From assembly GCA_020354025.1 (NCBI GenBank), contig CP070638.1, positions 579,523 through 643,522 on the forward strand: DNA of 64,000 bases, written 5' to 3'. Under the pieces are notes generated by a model that was not told where the DNA came from, searched no databases, and worked only from the letters and a program-made list of their open reading frames with translations. Below are positions 15,888-28,273 of the stretch, one piece after another (positions within the stretch are counted from its first letter, which is position 1; each line of letters opens with the position of its first letter). Made by a program: the position numbers and the translations under genes. The stretch is from Fidelibacterota bacterium (GTDB lineage: Bacteria > Fidelibacterota > Marinisomatia > SCGC-AAA003-L08 > TS1B11).

Positions 15888-15915
15888 CAAGTCCCGTAGT
15901 GGGGTCTTTTTTTTT
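15888..15915 (+). terminator. Intrinsic terminator after the PorD-like gene
   Basis: AAG-T-CCC and GGGG-T-CTT arms around GTAGT, with one mismatch, followed by nine or ten T residues. The stem is short but the T-run is long. Confidence 0.5.
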
Positions 15916-16006
15916 CAGTCATGGCAAATTATGTTTCCTGTTTGCTGGAAAACGCCATATATTCTTTAGTGTTTCTGCCTCATTAACAAATAAACATCGG
16001 TGTATC

Positions 16007-17248
16007 ATGAAACGACTACCCATCGACTACGGCTTCAGCTCCCACGCCATCCACGCCGGGGAGCTAACCGATGACATCTGCCAGGCCCACATAGCCCCCA
16101 TCTACCAGACCTCCACCTTCTGTTTCAAGGACGTGGAACAAGGCCGACGCCAGTTCACCGGTAAGGAAAAGGGTTATATCTACAGCCGCTGGTACAATCC
16201 CACCGTTGAGGCCATTGAAGAGAAGGTTGCTGCCCTAGAGGGAATGGAGCTGCGGCAAAATACCAAAGAAGGTGAATCCTGCCCGGAAGTCGTCGCTTTG
16301 GCCTTCTCCTCAGGTATGGCGGCTATCAGCACCCTGCTGCTGACCTTGCTGGAGCCCGGCGACACTGTCGTCACCCACGGTGGCCTCTACGGCGGCACCA
16401 CCGAGCTGGTCGAAAAACTGCTCCCGGAGATGGAGATCAACCACGTGCTGGTACGCATGGACAAGCCGGAGGAGGTAGAGAAGGCGATCAAGCAGACCGA
16501 GCGGCTCGGCCTAATCTATCTGGAGACGCCGGCAAATCCAACCCTGAACATGTGTGACATCGCGCAGATTTGCGAGATCGCCCACGCTCACGGTCTGAAA
16601 GTAGCGGTGGATAACACCTTCGCCACGCCGATTCTGCAGCAGCCTTTGGCCCTGGGCGCAGACTACGTAGTACACAGCACCACCAAGTATCTCAACGGCC
16701 ACGGCACCACCGTGGGAGGCATAGTAGTTTCCCGGGAGCTGGACTTCGTGCGTAACGACCTGTGGAGCCACAAGGAGCTGATGGGCGGTATCCCCAGTCC
16801 CTTCGACGCCTGGTTAATCAACCAGGGCCTTAAGACGCTGGCGCTGCGCGTGGAGCGCCACTGCGCCAATGCTATGGCAGTAGCCCGGTGGCTGGACCAG
16901 CATCCCAAAGTGGCCTATGTGGCCTATCCCGGTCTGGAGCACTTCCACCACCACGAGCTGGCCCGGCGGCAGATGAGGGACTTCGGCGGGATGATATCCT
17001 TCGAGCTCAAGGGGGGCCTGGAGGCGGGTGTGACGGTGATGAACAACGTATTTCTTTGCACCCTGGCGGTGAGCCTGGGTACGGTTGACACCCTCATTCA
17101 GCATCCGGCTTCCATGACCCACTCCAATGTACCGCTGGAAGAGCGGGAAGCGTTCGGCATTACCGATGGGCTGGTGCGGCTCTCGGTGGGGATCGAGGAT
17201 GTGGAGGACATAATCGACGACCTGGACCGGGCGCTAGGGAAGATTTGA
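16007..17248 (+). CDS. PLP-dependent trans-sulfuration enzyme (cystathionine/methionine gamma-lyase or synthase type)
   Basis: 413 residues of the Cys/Met metabolism PLP family. Visible are IAPIYQTSTF, YSRWYNPTVEAIE (phosphate-binding loop of the partner subunit), SSGMAAI, GGLYGGTTELVEKLLP, DNTFATP, the Schiff-base lysine in STTKYLNGH, and SPFDAWLINQGLKTLALR. A Gly instead of Cys after the GLYG Tyr argues against a classical methionine gamma-lyase; cystathionine lyase/synthase or O-acylhomoserine sulfhydrylase remain possible. The start at ATG 16007 is where the family begins; an upstream in-frame extension is rejected. The downstream Lrp-type gene, 28 bases away, may regulate it. Confidence 0.85.
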   Translation: MKRLPIDYGFSSHAIHAGELTDDICQAHIAPIYQTSTFCFKDVEQGRRQFTGKEKGYIYSRWYNPTVEAIEEKVAALEGMELRQNTKEGESCPEVVALAFSSGMAAISTLLLTLLEPGDTVVTHGGLYGGTTELVEKLLPEMEINHVLVRMDKPEEVEKAIKQTERLGLIYLETPANPTLNMCDIAQICEIAHAHGLKVAVDNTFATPILQQPLALGADYVVHSTTKYLNGHGTTVGGIVVSRELDFVRNDLWSHKELMGGIPSPFDAWLINQGLKTLALRVERHCANAMAVARWLDQHPKVAYVAYPGLEHFHHHELARRQMRDFGGMISFELKGGLEAGVTVMNNVFLCTLAVSLGTVDTLIQHPASMTHSNVPLEEREAFGITDGLVRLSVGIEDVEDIIDDLDRALGKI

Positions 17249-17276
17249 GTTTCTAGTTCAAAGTCGGCACGGAGCC

Positions 17277-17747
17277 ATGAATAAACTGGACAGTATCGAT
17301 AAGAAAATCCTGACCCTGCTCCAGCAGCGGGGGCGGATTACCAATGCCGAGCTCAGCAAGCGGGTAGGGCTATCGGCGGCTTCGGCTCTGGAGCGGGTGA
17401 AGAAGCTGGAGCGGGGTGGGATAATCAAGGGCTACCACGCCCGACTGGACCCTGCTGCGGTGGGCATCGGCCTGGTGATCCTGGTGGAAGTAACCCTGGC
17501 ACGACACCAACATGACGCCATCTTGCGGTTCGTTGAGGCGGTGCAGACGGTGGAGGAGATCGTGGACTGCTACCACGTTACCGGGCGGGCGGACTACCTG
17601 CTGCGGGTAGTGGCCAAAGACATCCCCAGCTACGAGCTGTTCGTCATGGAGACGCTCAGCACCCTGCCCGGTGTCCAGCACATCGAAACCATGATGATCC
17701 TCTCGGCGGTGAAGGAGTCGAAGGGCCTACCGATCATGGTGGAGTAG
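17277..17747 (+). CDS. Lrp/AsnC-family transcriptional regulator
   Basis: 156 residues. The N-terminal winged helix-turn-helix (LDSIDKKILTLLQQRGRITNAELSKRVGLSA) is shown here in its usual order with the AsnC pattern D-x-x-I-L-x-x-L. The C-terminal RAM/ACT-like ligand domain starts near residue 65 and includes YHVTGRADYLLRV and the GVQHIET turn. GGAG lies just before the ATG. Regulators of this type sense amino acids; its position right behind a Met/Cys enzyme gene suggests a sulfur amino acid as effector. Confidence 0.93.
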   Translation: MNKLDSIDKKILTLLQQRGRITNAELSKRVGLSAASALERVKKLERGGIIKGYHARLDPAAVGIGLVILVEVTLARHQHDAILRFVEAVQTVEEIVDCYHVTGRADYLLRVVAKDIPSYELFVMETLSTLPGVQHIETMMILSAVKESKGLPIMVE

Positions 17748-22120: not shown

Positions 22121-22296
22121 CCATTGGCAACAGGTCCAGCGGCGCCGTGGTGATTGCTCACTGAGGGGGAAATGGGGTAAATCTCCAGATAGGCGATGAT
22201 CCAGCAATTTAGCCGGGACTTCAATAATTATCCTTGCATGATTCTAGTTGATAGGATAAACTACGGCTTATAAGTAAGTACTTTGAATTTAAATTG

Positions 22297-22395
22297 ATGC
22301 TTACAATAGACCATAACACCCGTGACATGTACATGCCGATGATGAGCATGATGATGGATAGCTCCAGTCTTGCGGGCGTGGAGTGGGAGTTGTAG
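22297..22395 (+). CDS. Methionine-rich leader peptide
   Basis: A 32-codon frame (ATG 22297; an internal ATG at 22327 would give 22 codons) ending at TAG 22393-22395, just upstream of an intrinsic terminator and the threonine-synthase-like gene. Codons 22327-22356 read MYMPMMSMMM, seven Met in ten, followed by DSSSLAGVEWEL. Met codons concentrated in a leader before a terminator are the hallmark of ribosome-mediated attenuation. The segment 22375-22389, near its end, can pair imperfectly with 22423-22437 and so compete with the terminator. Weak point: neither ATG has a good ribosome-binding site. Upstream, TTGCAT (22233-22238) and TAAACT (22256-22261) may be the promoter. Confidence 0.55.
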   Translation: MLTIDHNTRDMYMPMMSMMMDSSSLAGVEWEL

Positions 22396-22420
22396 CCTAA
22401 GCGTTTAAAAATCAGATTTA

Positions 22421-22456
22421 ACCCCCTCTACCCCGCCGGTAGAGGGGTTTTTTTTT
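22421..22456 (+). terminator. Intrinsic terminator / attenuator before the aspartate-family operon
   Basis: A perfect 10-base stem, CCCCTCTACC (22423-22432) with GGTAGAGGGG (22438-22447), loop CCGCC, then nine T residues (22448-22456). The ribosome-binding site of the next gene (AAGGAG) begins only two bases after the T-run, so this terminator can only act as a switch inside the leader of that operon or end a short upstream transcript. Confidence 0.85.
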
Positions 22457-22466
22457 AAAGGAGTAG

Positions 22467-23732
22467 ATGAGAGTGAGCCAATTCCTAGAATGCCGCTCCT
22501 GTGGCGAAAAGATCGAGTTCAGGCCGGAGACCGTCTGTCCAACGTGTTTCAGTCCGCTTGAGGTGGTCTATGATTATGAAGCCCTCCGTAATACTTTACA
22601 ACATTCGGACATTGAAGGTCGCCCCGGAACCATGTGGCGTTATCAAGAGCTATTGCCGGAAGTTCCCGGTGGTATCCCCGACACCCCCGTAGGCTGGACC
22701 CCACTAATCCGTGCCCGGCGTCTCGGGGAAGCCCTGAACATGCCGAACCTCTATATCAAGAACGACGCTGTGAACTTTCCTTCACTCTCGTTCAAGGACC
22801 GGGTGGTATCGGTGGCTCTGGCCAAGGCAGTAGATTTCGGGTTCAGAACCATCGGCTGTGCTTCAACGGGTAATCTGGCAAACGCTGTTGGCGCACAAGC
22901 GTCCATGCTAGGGCTTAAAAGCGTTATTCTTATCCCCCAAGGATTGGAGCAGCAGAAGATACTGGCGTCCGCCTGTTACAATACACAGGTCATCAAGGTC
23001 GCCGGTTCCTATGACGATGTAAACCGCCTATGCACCGAACTCGCCTACCGGGAAGGGATCGGTATCGTGAATGTAAACCTCAGGCCCTTTTATGCCGAAG
23101 GCTCCAAGACCGTGGGTTTTGAGATAACGGAGCAGCTGGGATGGACTCTTCCCGACCAGGTTGTTGTGCCTATGGCCGGGGGCTCACTGATCTCAAAGGT
23201 CGGTAAGGCCTTCAGAGAGCTGATCCAGGTGGGACTGGTGGGAGAGAAGCCTGCGAAGCTGTTCGGTGCCCAAGCCACAGGCTGCGCTCCGATTTCCACC
23301 CTGGTGAAGACGAGTGCCGATGAGTTGGTACCCGTAAAACCGGACACAATTGTGAAGTCCCTGGCTATCGGGACGCCGGCTGATGGCCGTAAGGCTGCGG
23401 ATAGTATTCACCAGTCAGGCGGCTGGGCTGAGGACGTGAGCGATGAGGAGACCGTAGAGGGGATTGCCCTGCTGGCAGAGACCGAGGGAATCTTCACTGA
23501 GACTGCCGGGGGTGTTACGGTAGCCGTTGCCGGGAAGCTGCTGAAGCAGGGTCGTCTGGACCGGCGGGCTCTGACGGTTCTATGCATCACGGGTAACGGA
23601 TTGAAGACGGCCGACCTGATGGAATATAAAGCAGCTGACCTGGCGGTTATTGAACCCAAGTACTCGGCGTTTCAAGCCTATATTAACAGCCAACAAAAAG
23701 AGGAGAAGGAGCACTATGTCAGTGCGTGTTGA
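22467..23732 (+). CDS. thrC: Threonine synthase-like PLP enzyme (candidate O-phosphohomoserine sulfhydrylase)
   Basis: 421 residues, fold-type II PLP enzyme. An N-terminal zinc-ribbon (Cys9, Cys12, Cys24, Cys27) precedes the catalytic domain. The Schiff-base lysine is Lys110 in SLSFKDRVVS; ASTGNLA and the Gly-rich MAGGSLI are also present. By family it converts O-phosphohomoserine to threonine. However, it is preceded by a Met-rich leader and overlaps by 17 bases a sulfur-carrier gene, the setting of PLP enzymes that take sulfur from a protein thiocarboxylate. It may therefore make homocysteine; sequence alone cannot decide. ATG 22467 lies 3 bases after AAGGAG; an in-frame GTG at 22473 has better spacing. 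Confidence 0.85.
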   Translation: MRVSQFLECRSCGEKIEFRPETVCPTCFSPLEVVYDYEALRNTLQHSDIEGRPGTMWRYQELLPEVPGGIPDTPVGWTPLIRARRLGEALNMPNLYIKNDAVNFPSLSFKDRVVSVALAKAVDFGFRTIGCASTGNLANAVGAQASMLGLKSVILIPQGLEQQKILASACYNTQVIKVAGSYDDVNRLCTELAYREGIGIVNVNLRPFYAEGSKTVGFEITEQLGWTLPDQVVVPMAGGSLISKVGKAFRELIQVGLVGEKPAKLFGAQATGCAPISTLVKTSADELVPVKPDTIVKSLAIGTPADGRKAADSIHQSGGWAEDVSDEETVEGIALLAETEGIFTETAGGVTVAVAGKLLKQGRLDRRALTVLCITGNGLKTADLMEYKAADLAVIEPKYSAFQAYINSQQKEEKEHYVSAC

Positions 23733-23991
23733 GTTTCTCGGACCGCTAAAGCAAGTGGTAGGCGGCGAGGACATAATCGAATTGGAGGCAGGTACCATTG
23801 CCGGAGTTATTGAGAAACTGAACGAGCAATACCAGGGCGTGACCGATCGCCTGCTCGAACCGGAAGGCACCCTTCACCGCCATATCAATATCTACATTAA
23901 CGAGGAAGATATCCGCTTCAAAGAGCAGCTGCAGACCGCCTTGTCACCGGGCGATGTAGTTACCGTCATATCCGCGATCGCCGGGGGCTAG
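23716..23991 (+). CDS. MoaD/ThiS-family sulfur-carrier protein ending in Gly-Gly
   Basis: 91 residues with the ubiquitin-like beta-grasp pattern: SVRVEFLGPLKQVVGG at the start, then an LEAGTIAGVIEKL helix, INIYINEEDIR, SPGDVVTVISAIAGG at the end. The free C-terminal Gly-Gly is what an E1 enzyme adenylates and converts to a thiocarboxylate, so no protease trimming is needed. ATG 23716 follows AGGAGAAGGAG and overlaps the end of the threonine-synthase-like gene by 17 bases, implying translational coupling. No molybdopterin or thiamine genes are near, which argues for amino-acid sulfur transfer. Confidence 0.9.
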   Translation: MSVRVEFLGPLKQVVGGEDIIELEAGTIAGVIEKLNEQYQGVTDRLLEPEGTLHRHINIYINEEDIRFKEQLQTALSPGDVVTVISAIAGG

Positions 23992-23996
23992 TGAGA

Positions 23997-24905
23997 ATGG
24001 TTTCACCGCCTAAAACCGACAAACAGCAGGATTGGCATAATCGCTATGCCCGCCATATCGTCCTGGAGGGGGTGGGAGAATCAGGCCAGAAGGCTCTCAA
24101 TAGGGCCTCGGTGCTGATAGTCGGCACCGGCGGCCTCGGTTCGCCGGCGGCCTTTTACCTGACCGCGGCTGGCGTCGGCACCTTGGGATTGGTGGATGAT
24201 GATGACGTTTCCCTGAATAACCTTCAGCGTCAGCTCCTGCATGGGACGTCTGATATCGGGAGGCCAAAAGTTCACTCTGCCCTGGAGACATTGAACGAGA
24301 TCAATCCGGAAGTGAATATACACACCTATCTGGAGAAGGTAACACCGGAGATCATCTGGGATCTTGTCAGTGACTACGACCTGTTAGTGGATGCCAGCGA
24401 CAATTTTGCCACCCGGTTCCTGATTAACGATGTGTGTGTACAGGCTGGGAACCCCCTGGTTTTCGGAGCGGTGCTGCAGTTTTCCGGCCAAGTAACTACG
24501 TTTACCCAGGAGGACGACTGCGGGTGCTACCGCTGCCTGTTCCCCGAAGCACCGCCCCCCCAATACGTGCCAACTTGTGAACAAGCGGGGATCTTTGGCG
24601 TCATACCTGGAATTATCGGGACGCTGCAGGCGGCCGAGGCCTTGAAGCTAATTCTCGGACGCAGTGGCCATGAGGTGGGAACCATCCTCAAGAACCGGCT
24701 GCTGCTATATGATGGAAAGGACTCATCCTTCCGGACCGTGAAGCTCAGCAAGAATCCCGGCTGCCCGGTCTGCGCCGATCCCGCTTTTAATTTCCGCAGG
24801 GTGAATTATCACAATACCTGTGCCCTTGAGGGCTCACCGGCGACTCCGCTGGGATCACAAAGCACAGCCGATCCGTCTGTGGCTGCCGAGGCTGCCAAAT
24901 CGTGA
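23997..24905 (+). CDS. MoeB/ThiF-like E1 enzyme activating the sulfur carrier
   Basis: 302 residues. An adenylating E1-like enzyme with HNRYARHIVLEGVGESGQ, the nucleotide loop IVGTGGLGSP (~41-50), the Asp-rich DDDDVSLNNLQRQ segment with the catalytic Arg, and DASDNFATR. Two Cys pairs (177/180 and 256/259) should bind zinc, and Cys194 in VPTCEQAG matches the position of the catalytic or persulfide Cys of the family. No rhodanese domain is attached; a ~40-residue Ala/Ser-rich tail follows. The start may be this ATG or the GTG at 23991 that overlaps the carrier stop codon. It should adenylate the Gly-Gly end of the upstream carrier. Confidence 0.9.
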   Translation: MVSPPKTDKQQDWHNRYARHIVLEGVGESGQKALNRASVLIVGTGGLGSPAAFYLTAAGVGTLGLVDDDDVSLNNLQRQLLHGTSDIGRPKVHSALETLNEINPEVNIHTYLEKVTPEIIWDLVSDYDLLVDASDNFATRFLINDVCVQAGNPLVFGAVLQFSGQVTTFTQEDDCGCYRCLFPEAPPPQYVPTCEQAGIFGVIPGIIGTLQAAEALKLILGRSGHEVGTILKNRLLLYDGKDSSFRTVKLSKNPGCPVCADPAFNFRRVNYHNTCALEGSPATPLGSQSTADPSVAAEAAKS

Positions 24906-24950: not shown

Positions 24951-25862
24951 ATGAGCATTCGTATTCACACATCAGTCCCGGCCAGCACGGCCAACCTAGG
25001 TCCCGGCTACGACGTCCTGGGACTGGCGTTAAGCTTACGGCTTAAGACCACAGCTACGCCGGCCGGCGAGTGGTCAGTAGTGATCGTTGGTGAGGGCGCC
25101 CACCTTCTTGATAATTGCAGTGAGAACCTGATCGCCCGCGCCTGTCAACAAGCCTGTGAGTGGAACGGTTGGGAAGCTCAGCCCCTGCGTATAGAAAGCG
25201 AGAATCCCATCCCAATAGCCCGGGGTCTGGGCAGCAGCGCAGCGGCCATCGTCACTGGGATGGCCTTAGCCCAGCTGACAAATCTCGACAGAATTGACAA
25301 GGACGCCCTGTTCCGGGATGCGGCAGTAATGGAGGGTCACCCGGACAACGTGGCAGCCGCGGTTTACGGCGGGCTCCAGGAAGTAATACAGAATGGAGAC
25401 GGTTATAAGGCCCATTCAAGACAGCTAGACAACACAGTGCGGATCCTGCTAGCGGTTCCTGGTAGTATGAAATCCACGGCCAGACTACGGGAAATCGTGC
25501 CGAAGGAGTTGCCTGCGGAGGTTCTGGCGGCTAACGATATGGCCTTGAAACAGGTCTTGGCTGGATTGGCGCAGGGTGATGCGGCCCTATTGCGCTATTC
25601 CGAGGCGGATAAGCGCCACCAACCCTATCGGCTAGGCGTCCAACCGGAATCCCAGGCTATTTTCGGACTGCTACAGGAAATTCCCGGTGTGGCCGGTGTA
25701 TTTCTCAGCGGCGCGGGGACTGCGGTTGGAGGCTGGGTACTGGACGAAGCAGACTACATCTCCCAGGTCGAACAGCTACTTAAAAAGCGGTCCATTTCGG
25801 CGTTGGTACAGGTGATCCCACCGGACCTGAAGGGGATTGAAGGTGAAATCATCAAACGGTAA
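24951..25862 (+). CDS. thrB: Homoserine kinase (GHMP family)
   Basis: 303 residues. It phosphorylates homoserine to O-phosphohomoserine, the substrate of the first gene of the operon. It shows the N-terminal VPASTANLGPGYDVLGLAL, the GHMP phosphate loop PIARGLGSSAAA, EGHPDNVAAA (Asn/Asp near the substrate), and the C-terminal glycine-rich GVFLSGAGTAVGG. Length and start are normal. It overlaps the aspartokinase start by 20 bases. Confidence 0.95.
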   Translation: MSIRIHTSVPASTANLGPGYDVLGLALSLRLKTTATPAGEWSVVIVGEGAHLLDNCSENLIARACQQACEWNGWEAQPLRIESENPIPIARGLGSSAAAIVTGMALAQLTNLDRIDKDALFRDAAVMEGHPDNVAAAVYGGLQEVIQNGDGYKAHSRQLDNTVRILLAVPGSMKSTARLREIVPKELPAEVLAANDMALKQVLAGLAQGDAALLRYSEADKRHQPYRLGVQPESQAIFGLLQEIPGVAGVFLSGAGTAVGGWVLDEADYISQVEQLLKKRSISALVQVIPPDLKGIEGEIIKR

Positions 25863-27234
25863 TTGTTACATATTCAAGTTCGGTGGAACCTCACTTCAGA
25901 CCGCCGAACGTATCCTCAAGGTACTGGATATTATATCTGGTTTCGATCAGCCGTTGGCGGTGGTCACTTCTGCTGTAGGAGGTATTACCGATCTGCTGGT
26001 GGAAGCAAGTTCCAATCCGGCTTCGCTCCATAGCAGAAAGGATGAAATCCACCGGCTTCATCTCAGGCTGGCGGGGGAGCTGGGTTTGGAGGGTGTTTCC
26101 CTGGCCGAATACGAAGCTCATCTTTGCGAAACTCTTGCCGATCTTGAAGCGGCGGGATCAACCGGGGACGGTAAGGCGCGCGATCTCATACTATCCACGG
26201 GAGAACGCCTATCTACCTCCTTGATCGCCAAGACGCTGGAATTGAGGGGTATTAGATGCGAGTACATCGACAGTCGGCCATTCATCCGGACCGACAGCAA
26301 TTGGCATGAGGCCCGAGTAGATCTCGCCGCAACCGATGATCTGACGTCAAAGGCGTTGGATCCTCTCATTGAGAGGGGAGTGATCCCGATAGTAACCGGT
26401 TTTCTGGGCAGCAATGAGAAGGGCGAGACTACCACCATAGGCCGCAATGGCTCTGACTTGACGGCCACTTTGCTGGGAGCCTGCCTAAACGCCGCGGAGG
26501 TCTGGATCTGGACCGACGTCGACGGGATTTTTACCGCTGACCCGCGTTACCACCGGGGTGCCCGACTGTTGCCCGAAATTTCTTTCCGCGAAGCAGCCGA
26601 GGTAGCCTACTTCGGCGCCACCGTGATTCATCCTCATACCTTATGGCCACTGTTACAGACGGAGGTAGCCGTGCGAATCAAGAATACCCTTAATCCAGAG
26701 CAGCCCGGAACCCTTATCTGCTCCGAACCGAAGGAACGTGGTAAAATCCTCATTACAACCTCTGTTGAAGGAGTATCCGCGATTACGGTCGGGGGCTATG
26801 GTATGGTCGGAGTTCCCGGCATAGCCGCCGAGATCTTTTCGACGGTCAGGGATGAAGGTACGAATGTACTCATGATCAGTCAGAGTTCAGCTGAACACAA
26901 CATCACATTTGTGATCCGGAATGAGGAAGTGCCACAGACGGTGGCTTCGTTGGAAAAGGCTCTCAAAGAGTGGATTGAGAAGGACCATCGCATAGACCGG
27001 ATTCGGGTTGTTCCGGACACGGCCATTATTACCGTTGTCGGTGAGAACATGCGGGGACGCCACGGTATTGCTGGTAAGATATTTTCCGCCCTGGGACGGA
27101 ATGAAATCAATGTGGTCGCCATTGCCCAGGGTTCATCCGAATACTCTATCTCTATGGTCTTGAAGGCTGCGGACAGGCGCCTGGCCGTGGATGCCATCCA
27201 CGGGGAGCTCGATGAGGAGAACGGTAATGTCTAG
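25843..27234 (+). CDS. lysC: Aspartate kinase with two ACT domains
   Basis: 463 residues. First committed step of the aspartate family, making aspartyl phosphate. It opens with FKFGGTSL (KFGGTS signature), then LSTGERLSTSLIA, TIGRNGSDLTA and the WTDVDGIFTADPR loop. Two ACT regulatory domains follow (from ~300: GVSAITVGGYG and VVPDTAIITVVGENM), giving feedback sensing by threonine or lysine. The GTG at 25843 follows AAGGGG and overlaps thrB by 20 bases. There is no fused homoserine dehydrogenase and none elsewhere in the window, so that enzyme must be encoded elsewhere. Confidence 0.93.
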   Translation: MKSSNGNCYIFKFGGTSLQTAERILKVLDIISGFDQPLAVVTSAVGGITDLLVEASSNPASLHSRKDEIHRLHLRLAGELGLEGVSLAEYEAHLCETLADLEAAGSTGDGKARDLILSTGERLSTSLIAKTLELRGIRCEYIDSRPFIRTDSNWHEARVDLAATDDLTSKALDPLIERGVIPIVTGFLGSNEKGETTTIGRNGSDLTATLLGACLNAAEVWIWTDVDGIFTADPRYHRGARLLPEISFREAAEVAYFGATVIHPHTLWPLLQTEVAVRIKNTLNPEQPGTLICSEPKERGKILITTSVEGVSAITVGGYGMVGVPGIAAEIFSTVRDEGTNVLMISQSSAEHNITFVIRNEEVPQTVASLEKALKEWIEKDHRIDRIRVVPDTAIITVVGENMRGRHGIAGKIFSALGRNEINVVAIAQGSSEYSISMVLKAADRRLAVDAIHGELDEENGNV

Positions 27235-28273
27235 ACTGAAAGTGGGTATCCTGGGTGCCACAGGTGCCGTGGGGCAGCGGTTCGTTGAGCTACTGGAGGG
27301 GCATGCCTGGTTTGAGGTGGCGGCGCTCTACGCCTCGGAGCGCTCGGCGAAAAAGCCATACCGGGAGGCGGTGAATTGGCAGGTACCGGTCCCGCGCCCT
27401 ACCTATGTAGATGACCTTATTGTCAGGGAGCTGGAGCCTGACGGTGAGGTGGACCTCGTGTTTTCAGCCCTTCCCAGGGGACCAGCCAGGGTGATCGAAG
27501 CGGCCTTTGCCCGGGCGGGCGTCCCGGTTATTTCAAACGCCAGCGCTTTCCGCATGGATGGTGATGTACCGCTCGTTGTCCCGGAGGTAAATCCGGAGCA
27601 TACCGCTCTGATCGAGGTACAGCGAAGAGATCGCGACTGGCAGGGTTTCATTGTTACCAATCCTAACTGCGCGGTTATCGGGCTAGTGCTGCCCCTGAAA
27701 CCCCTGCATGACGCGTTTTGCCTACGTCAGGTACAGGTGGTGACGATGCAGGCGAGATCGGGGGCGGGCTATCCGGGTCCGCCGCCGGAGGCTATTGACG
27801 ATAACGTCCTGCCTTTTATCGGGGGCGAGGAAGAGAAGGTCGAGGAGGAACCCCGTAAGCTCCTGGGCACTATCACCGGTGATGGGATCAGGGAGGCGGA
27901 CCTGACTGTCTCAGCCCAGTGCAACCGGGTAAACGTCCTCGATGGGCACCTGGAGTCGGTGAGTCTGGGCTTTGAAAAGCGACCCACTGTAGAGGAGGTC
28001 GCCCGGACGTTGCGGGAATTCCGCGGACTGCCCCAGGAAGCCGGTCTACCCTCAGCACCTGAGTGTCCGGTCCTGGTACTGGACGATGAGGATCGCCCCC
28101 AGCCCAAGCTCGACCGGGATGCGGGTAAAGGTATGGCGGTTACCGTTGGTCGCATCCGGCCCGACAGCGTCGTTGACATCAAATTCATGGTACTTTCGCA
28201 TAACACCATCAGGGGCGCGGCCGGTGCCGCCATCCTTAATGCGGAACTGCTCAAACATCAGGGGTACTTATGA
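27227..28273 (+). CDS. asd: Aspartate-semialdehyde dehydrogenase, archaeal/fungal type
   Basis: 348 residues. It reduces aspartyl phosphate to the semialdehyde. GATGAVGQRFVELLEGH begins the Rossmann fold, the catalytic Cys is in NPNCAVIGLVLPL, and MQARSGAGYPGPPPEAIDDNV (two adjacent pieces) with PFIGGEEEKVE..E..KLLG is the block of the archaeal/eukaryotic-type enzyme rather than the E. coli type. ATG 27227 has GAGGAG upstream and overlaps lysC by 8 bases; a longer frame start at 27191 lies inside lysC without a site. The stop overlaps the next gene (ATGA). Confidence 0.93.
   Translation: MSRLKVGILGATGAVGQRFVELLEGHAWFEVAALYASERSAKKPYREAVNWQVPVPRPTYVDDLIVRELEPDGEVDLVFSALPRGPARVIEAAFARAGVPVISNASAFRMDGDVPLVVPEVNPEHTALIEVQRRDRDWQGFIVTNPNCAVIGLVLPLKPLHDAFCLRQVQVVTMQARSGAGYPGPPPEAIDDNVLPFIGGEEEKVEEEPRKLLGTITGDGIREADLTVSAQCNRVNVLDGHLESVSLGFEKRPTVEEVARTLREFRGLPQEAGLPSAPECPVLVLDDEDRPQPKLDRDAGKGMAVTVGRIRPDSVVDIKFMVLSHNTIRGAAGAAILNAELLKHQGYL

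Follow-up and report, generated by a model that had tools for sequence, protein, structure and literature searches.

The leader and the genes behind it

The locus lies in a window of 64,000 nucleotides (the whole stretch of DNA that was analysed) from the genome (G000) of an uncultured marine bacterium, a Candidatus Neomarinimicrobiota, and the leader and the six genes behind it are on its forward (+) strand. A short open reading frame at 22297–22395 (32 codons, MLTIDHNTRDMYMPMMSMMMDSSSLAGVEWEL, with its stop codon at 22393–22395; 22 codons if counted from the ATG at 22327) contains a run at 22327–22356 in which seven of ten codons are Met. No other stop-free stretch of ten codons with seven Met was found in the six frames of the 64 kb, and the maximum reached in 20 dinucleotide shuffles was four. 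The ORF is followed by an intrinsic terminator (22423–22456), composed of a 10-bp stem (22423–22432/22438–22447), a 5-nt loop (CCGCC) and nine T residues (22448–22456), the last of which is two bases 5' of the AGGAG of the next gene. The original prediction, a methionine attenuator made from the letters alone, had placed the ORF, the Met run, the stop at 22395 and the perfect 10-base stem with nine T before the threonine-synthase-like gene correctly to the base. The weak point it conceded, a leader without a clear ribosome-binding site, also stands, as no Shine-Dalgarno sequence precedes the start at 22297.

A promoter-like pair, TTGCAT (−35, 22234–22239) and TAAACT (−10, 22257–22262) separated by a 17-nt spacer, ends 34 nt 5' of the leader ATG and predicts a transcription start at about 22270; a strict consensus promoter scan did not report this pair. 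The pattern TTGNNN-N16-18-TANNNT precedes the leader also in a second copy in the same genome and in six further genomes (G001, G006, G007, G008, G010 and G198, see below), and a sigma-70-type promoter is predicted upstream of all leaders. In G006, G007 and G010 the leader ATG is so near the −10 element that the leader may begin at or close to the first base of a transcript whose start has not been mapped. A start downstream of 22360 would have refuted the attenuator; the promoter predicted at 22234–22262 places it well upstream.

Six genes follow. The first (22467–23732) encodes a threonine-synthase-like PLP enzyme (TIGR00260, 254 bits), predicted to be a homocysteine synthase of the MetM type. 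The second (23719–23991) encodes a ThiS/MoaD-type, MetO-like sulfur carrier (PF02597) with the Gly-Gly C-terminus AIAGG, and the third (23991–24905) an E1-like carrier-activating adenylyltransferase (ThiF/MoeB; PF00899 and NCBIfam). By annotation, homoserine kinase (thrB, 24951–25862), aspartate kinase (lysC, ending at 27234) and aspartate-semialdehyde dehydrogenase (asd, 27191–28273) complete the series. Near this operon, a methionine-gamma-lyase-like gene and then an Lrp-type regulator occupy 15899–17747 of the window.

Assignment of the operon to methionine synthesis

The genes had been labelled a threonine/lysine operon, for which control by Met was called unexpected. In order to place the first gene, a tree was built with FastTree and midpoint rooted; it did not include the MetM sequence of Streptomyces albulus. 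The gene fell into a clade of 44 sequences (support 0.997), from which the ThrC-like proteins encoded by these genomes were separate; within it, the leader-bearing members grouped as one subclade (support 1.0). Such a position outside ThrC is what one would expect of a threonine-synthase-like MetM, although a direct comparison with MetM of S. albulus is lacking. The genome has a separate ThrC-like gene elsewhere, and G001 carries one immediately 5' of its leader.

The neighbourhood points the same way. Nearly every locus of the clade has a MoaD/ThiS-type carrier close to the gene, often together with an E1, and the adjoining carrier ending in Gly-Gly that marks a MetM/MetO pair is present here. 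Streptomyces MetM and MetO have been reported to make homocysteine from O-phosphohomoserine (Hasebe et al. 2024, via PMC12172450). In other phyla, a SAM-I riboswitch stands before the gene at 22 of the 33 loci that lie outside the leader subclade and have upstream sequence, including loci from Acidobacteria, Zetaproteobacteria, Planctomycetes, Deltaproteobacteria and Verrucomicrobia. Judged from these contexts, the annotation of threonine-synthase-like genes preceded by SAM-I in many phyla (upstream regions L037–L066 and L072) is probably wrong, and methionine synthesis is their likely role. At two acidobacterial loci (L048 and L049) the gene has a SAM riboswitch and an adjoining homoserine kinase, with no carrier found in the locus. 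In a relative of Candidatus Hadarchaeum (L071), which falls outside the bacterial clade, carrier and E1 adjoin the gene and there is no SAM riboswitch.

Because of the separate ThrC clade, the carrier and E1 neighbours, the SAM riboswitches on orthologues and the match to the published MetM setting, we regard the operon as a methionine operon; the support is indirect, and the formation of homocysteine from O-phosphohomoserine is inferred without enzyme data. The products of thrB, lysC and asd would help to supply O-phosphohomoserine, an inference that leaves homoserine dehydrogenase out of its scope, and in G198 the attenuator precedes only metM, carrier and E1, with no thrB, lysC or asd after them. 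No MetX was detected above cut-off in the family, and MetH is present. Other routes to homocysteine are not excluded, because further PLP enzymes of Cys/Met metabolism (PF01053) exist. Control of threonine synthesis was considered and ruled out by the separate ThrC in the genome and by the SAM riboswitches on orthologues. The threonine/lysine label is therefore best replaced: by clade, context and riboswitches the first gene is a MetM-type paralogue predicted to form homocysteine, and since it is, control by Met is what one would expect of the operon.

The leader in related genomes and in a second copy

Six genomes of the family and one genome of another class have orthologues of the first gene, at 69–77% identity. 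At all six orthologous loci with readable sequence, one of them from the other class, a short ORF with Met codons ends just 5' of a terminator: MITATAHSQHCQGMMMMAMMMMHPRHRAGVERTL in G001, MKAGLRNITRSVYHNCPMCMAMDTPMMGPEGAL in G007, MYHNTQISTCMYMAMMGIMMPRPTLAGNEW in G008, MNIKKMAYNNQNNTRCVDMGIMMCLMCMYSSDTVGVEWLL in G198, MSGYEIFGIETGMRRMPMMAMIMCARRWGQERMG in G010 and MSGHEIFGIGTGMRRMPMIAKIMCARRWGQERME, which has the weakest Met run, in G006. G002 was kept out of this count; its ORF region is N-masked in both contig copies, and the terminator is retained. The antiterminator described below is likewise present, with the terminator, at all six loci and at the second copy in G000, those of G006 and G010 not exceeding shuffled sequence. 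As a control, the 450 nt upstream of the scanned orthologous and related loci outside the phylum contained no stretch with at least four Met per ten codons. A terminator kept in relatives without a Met-rich ORF would have spoken against the attenuator, and none of the six readable loci shows this. The alignment proposed as a check thus found the Met run, terminator and antiterminator kept and the rest of the leader diverged, as foreseen; the compensatory changes expected in the stems were sparse and amounted to one pair.

A covariance model spanning region 2 (the 5' half of the antiterminator) to the terminator (R1) recovered one further strong match within this genome (G000:C1:1645907-1646007, E=3e-15). 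The leader at this second copy, MRATAHTSPDKYIEMMCMMMLCPGSAGVEWEL, has the same promoter layout and terminator, includes the stretch MMCMMMLC with its Cys codons, and precedes cysK-cysE-nifS-nadA-ThiF/MoeB (E1) (L153:5700-11202 = G000:C1:1645700-1651200). The two copies can be aligned across the leader; judged by the alignment, the second therefore arose by duplication, with the Met run and the RNA elements kept and the start of the ORF and most codons in between changed. The element CAATAATTATCCTTGCATGAT is identical at and upstream of the −35 in both promoters of the genome (window 22210–22245; L153:5770-5792) and is possibly an upstream promoter element retained with the duplication.

Further copies in the phylum were also sought. 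The R1 matches fetched outside the known loci (L114–L126) had no Met-rich ORF and appeared to be no more than similar terminators. A search with the pattern ATGATGNNNATGATG recovered the known leaders; its other matches for which the locus was fetched, scanned only for short Met-rich ORFs, gave no comparable leader with the R1 elements.

Alternative RNA structures

The leader region folded better than all of 200 shuffles (z −2.9). Region 2 (22372–22392) lies inside the last part of the leader ORF and can form a duplex with region 3 (22419–22436), which overlaps the left terminator arm and most of its loop. This antiterminator duplex begins 14 nt after the last Met codon and has a predicted energy of −28.2 kcal/mol, compared with a mean of −14.0 for shuffles of region 2 (p=0.001). 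The pairing of 22375–22389 with 22423–22437 drawn by hand in the original prediction is real and can be extended to 22372–22392 with 22419–22436. The offset of exactly 14 nt past the last Met codon recurs in the second copy, G001, G008 and G198. Against shuffles, the antiterminator was supported in G001 (p=0.004), G008 (0.001), G198 (0.001), the second copy (0.001) and G007 (0.024), and was no better than shuffles in G006 (p=0.09) and G010 (p=0.2), where G+C-rich sequence gives a strong null.

We then simulated ribosome positions by folding the RNA left free by the ribosome up to the point before the right terminator arm is made, on the assumption that the leading edge of the ribosome lies about 12–13 nt past the start of the A-site codon. 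In the stalled state the antiterminator formed in eight of eight leaders, and with the ribosome at the stop codon in none (0/8). For G007, G006 and G010 the simulation assumes a stall at an earlier Met codon, since their last Met codon lies close to region 2 and only earlier stalls would work.

A third element, region 1 (22298–22326), at the start of the ORF, can pair with region 2 as a possible protector (−23.0 kcal/mol, p=0.03 against shuffles). This pairing is strong in G000, G001 and G198 and unsupported in G006, G007, G008 and G010. Because only three leaders support it, we keep it as an optional element. As to covariation, the one compensatory pair is a C-G to U-A change, joining region 2 to the terminator loop, in G198; most shuffle-based pair counts were unexceptional in the seven sequences, which are too few to decide.

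Proposed mechanism and other explanations

We propose that the leader is a ribosome-mediated transcription attenuator that senses methionine through the charging of elongator tRNA-Met and controls a methionine operon, and we give this reading a probability of roughly 0.88. The evidence is computational throughout and includes no data on expression, transcription start or ribosome position. The attenuator as first suggested is upheld by the promoter upstream and by the Met run, terminator and antiterminator that relatives keep, with the sensing of Met-tRNA charging as an inference. What defines such an attenuator can be compared with the locus point by point. A short ORF in which end-product codons follow one another closely stands in a leader whose transcription rests on the predicted promoter only. 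A terminator lies between the ORF and the first gene, and does so in all relatives. The antiterminator excludes the terminator, is covered with the ribosome at the stop and is free on a stall in the Met run, in computation and with the reservation on the duplexes of G006 and G010. The codon run and the alternative structures are conserved among relatives, with sparse compensatory change. The operon makes the amino acid coded in the leader, as indicated indirectly by the SAM riboswitches on orthologues, the MetM/MetO context and the separate ThrC.

Transcription would begin at about 22270, with the leader ORF translated behind the polymerase. When methionine suffices, the ribosome would clear the Met run, arrive at the stop codon (22393–22395) and cover region 2 (22372–22392), so that the terminator hairpin (22423–22447) forms and transcription ends at about 22456. 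When methionine is scarce, the ribosome would stall within the Met run and leave region 2 free to pair with 22419–22436 before the right terminator arm exists; with the antiterminator formed, the polymerase would continue into metM-metO-E1-thrB-lysC-asd. In an untranslated leader, region 1 could pair with region 2, which would favour termination. Computation has established the anatomy and its conservation, the mutual exclusion of the two structures and the assignment of the operon to methionine; that the leader is translated and that its ribosome stalls on uncharged tRNA are inferences, as are the read-through response and its size.

The aminoacyl-tRNA of Met also starts every protein, so that methionine is a special case in which translational sensing competes with the leader's own initiation. 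Methionine starvation also lowers the charging of initiator tRNA, and translation of the leader could drop; for this reason the response may be greatest at moderate limitation, for which several Met codons well past the start would, we infer, be suited. The system shows how a genome may live with this competition.

Cysteine may also contribute to sensing by the leader. It is possible, if doubtful, that Met and Cys codons are both regulatory and that the leaders sense a general shortage of sulfur amino acids, with a regulon of two operons answering to either. Seven of the eight leaders contain Cys codons, most of them within the Met run or next to it (MMCMMMLC in the second copy, MMCLMCM in G198), and the second copy precedes cysK-cysE. 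However, the leader in the window has no Cys codon, and Met codons are several-fold more numerous than Cys.

A sequence-specific arrest of the nascent peptide (TnaC-like), with direct sensing of SAM or methionine and the conserved AGVEWEL end serving as arrest motif, appears very unlikely. Five leaders do carry an AGVEW-like end. This stretch doubles as region 2 of the antiterminator, however, and because of that its conservation is explained by RNA pairing; moreover, the end differs in G006, G007 and G010, and identity among the leader peptides is low.

The RNA elements are the best-conserved part of the leader, and the terminator and antiterminator might alone matter, with the Met run incidental or selected as RNA sequence. 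We consider this hardly tenable. In the eight leaders, 49 of the 50 internal ATGs are in the frame of the ORF and one is out, while the codons in between change, a pattern that points to the codons, and not the RNA sequence, as the target of selection; in addition, the run is retained at the second locus and has no counterpart at the scanned loci outside the phylum. Finally, Met-rich small proteins, metal-binding ones for example, do exist, but a small functional peptide unrelated to attenuation can be practically dismissed for an ORF whose N-terminal half is not conserved, whose stop is similarly placed relative to the RNA elements and which was found only before sulfur-amino-acid operons.

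Comparison with known systems

In its mechanism, the methionine attenuator proposed here agrees with the trp, his, leu, thr, ilv and phe attenuators. It shares with them a promoter, a short leader ORF holding a series of end-product codons, a terminator just 5' of the first gene, and an antiterminator that overlaps the ORF end and the left terminator arm, and it differs in that the regulatory codons are Met. The attenuators covered by surveys respond to His, Leu, Thr, Trp, Ile/Val or Phe (PMC3766115); in Actinobacteria, Cys leaders are known as well (PMC1262725). A study of 2010 stated that none of this type were known outside Proteobacteria and Actinobacteria, and added Firmicutes (PMC2965389). 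Elsewhere, methionine genes are controlled by riboswitches, by T-boxes or by repressors (PMC4239095). Neither Rfam nor the literature searched, which mostly did not cover subscription papers, yielded a leader-peptide attenuator specific for Met, and an earlier report is not excluded. We consider it probable that the leader represents a Met-specific attenuator undescribed in these sources, in a phylum without known attenuators of such type, which occupies the place of the SAM riboswitch of other phyla and has been duplicated to an operon for cysteine and sulfur transfer, giving a small sulfur-amino-acid regulon that reads translation and not SAM. Thus the mechanism is known, and the amino acid and the phylum would be new.

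The methionine-specific T-box of Lactobacillaceae senses the charging of tRNA-Met and controls methionine genes (PMC4239095). Both properties are shared with the leader, for which the sensing of charging is inferred, whereas the T-box reads the tRNA directly via RNA structure; the T-box model of Rfam, by which such an element would be recognised, had no match here at gathering score or at E up to 10. Other known RNA families were tried and rejected, as none matched at gathering score; the low sub-threshold matches belonged to scattered families and lay mostly over the terminator or the Met run.

A further comparison is with the SAM-I riboswitch (S-box, RF00162), which in other phyla precedes orthologues of the first gene, several of them with a terminator at the same place. 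The leader differs in having no aptamer: RF00162 had no match in the window and none in the genomes of the family, so that a SAM riboswitch is not indicated. The phylum as a whole does not lack the riboswitch, because another Neomarinimicrobiota genome (G048, locus L092) has one before a cystathionine-synthase-like gene. Whether the attenuator replaced a SAM riboswitch or arose separately is not settled. In S. albulus the threonine-synthase-like MetM adjoins a sulfur carrier, as the first gene does here, and is reported to have a SAM riboswitch upstream (Hasebe et al. 2024, via PMC12172450). The leader peptide takes that position in the present operon, whose enzyme activity is inferred. The system supports moving the first gene from its annotation as threonine synthase into methionine synthesis. 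It also makes the leader the counterpart, on this gene, of the SAM riboswitch, and gives a clean example of a gene family that uses two unrelated RNA sensors in different phyla.
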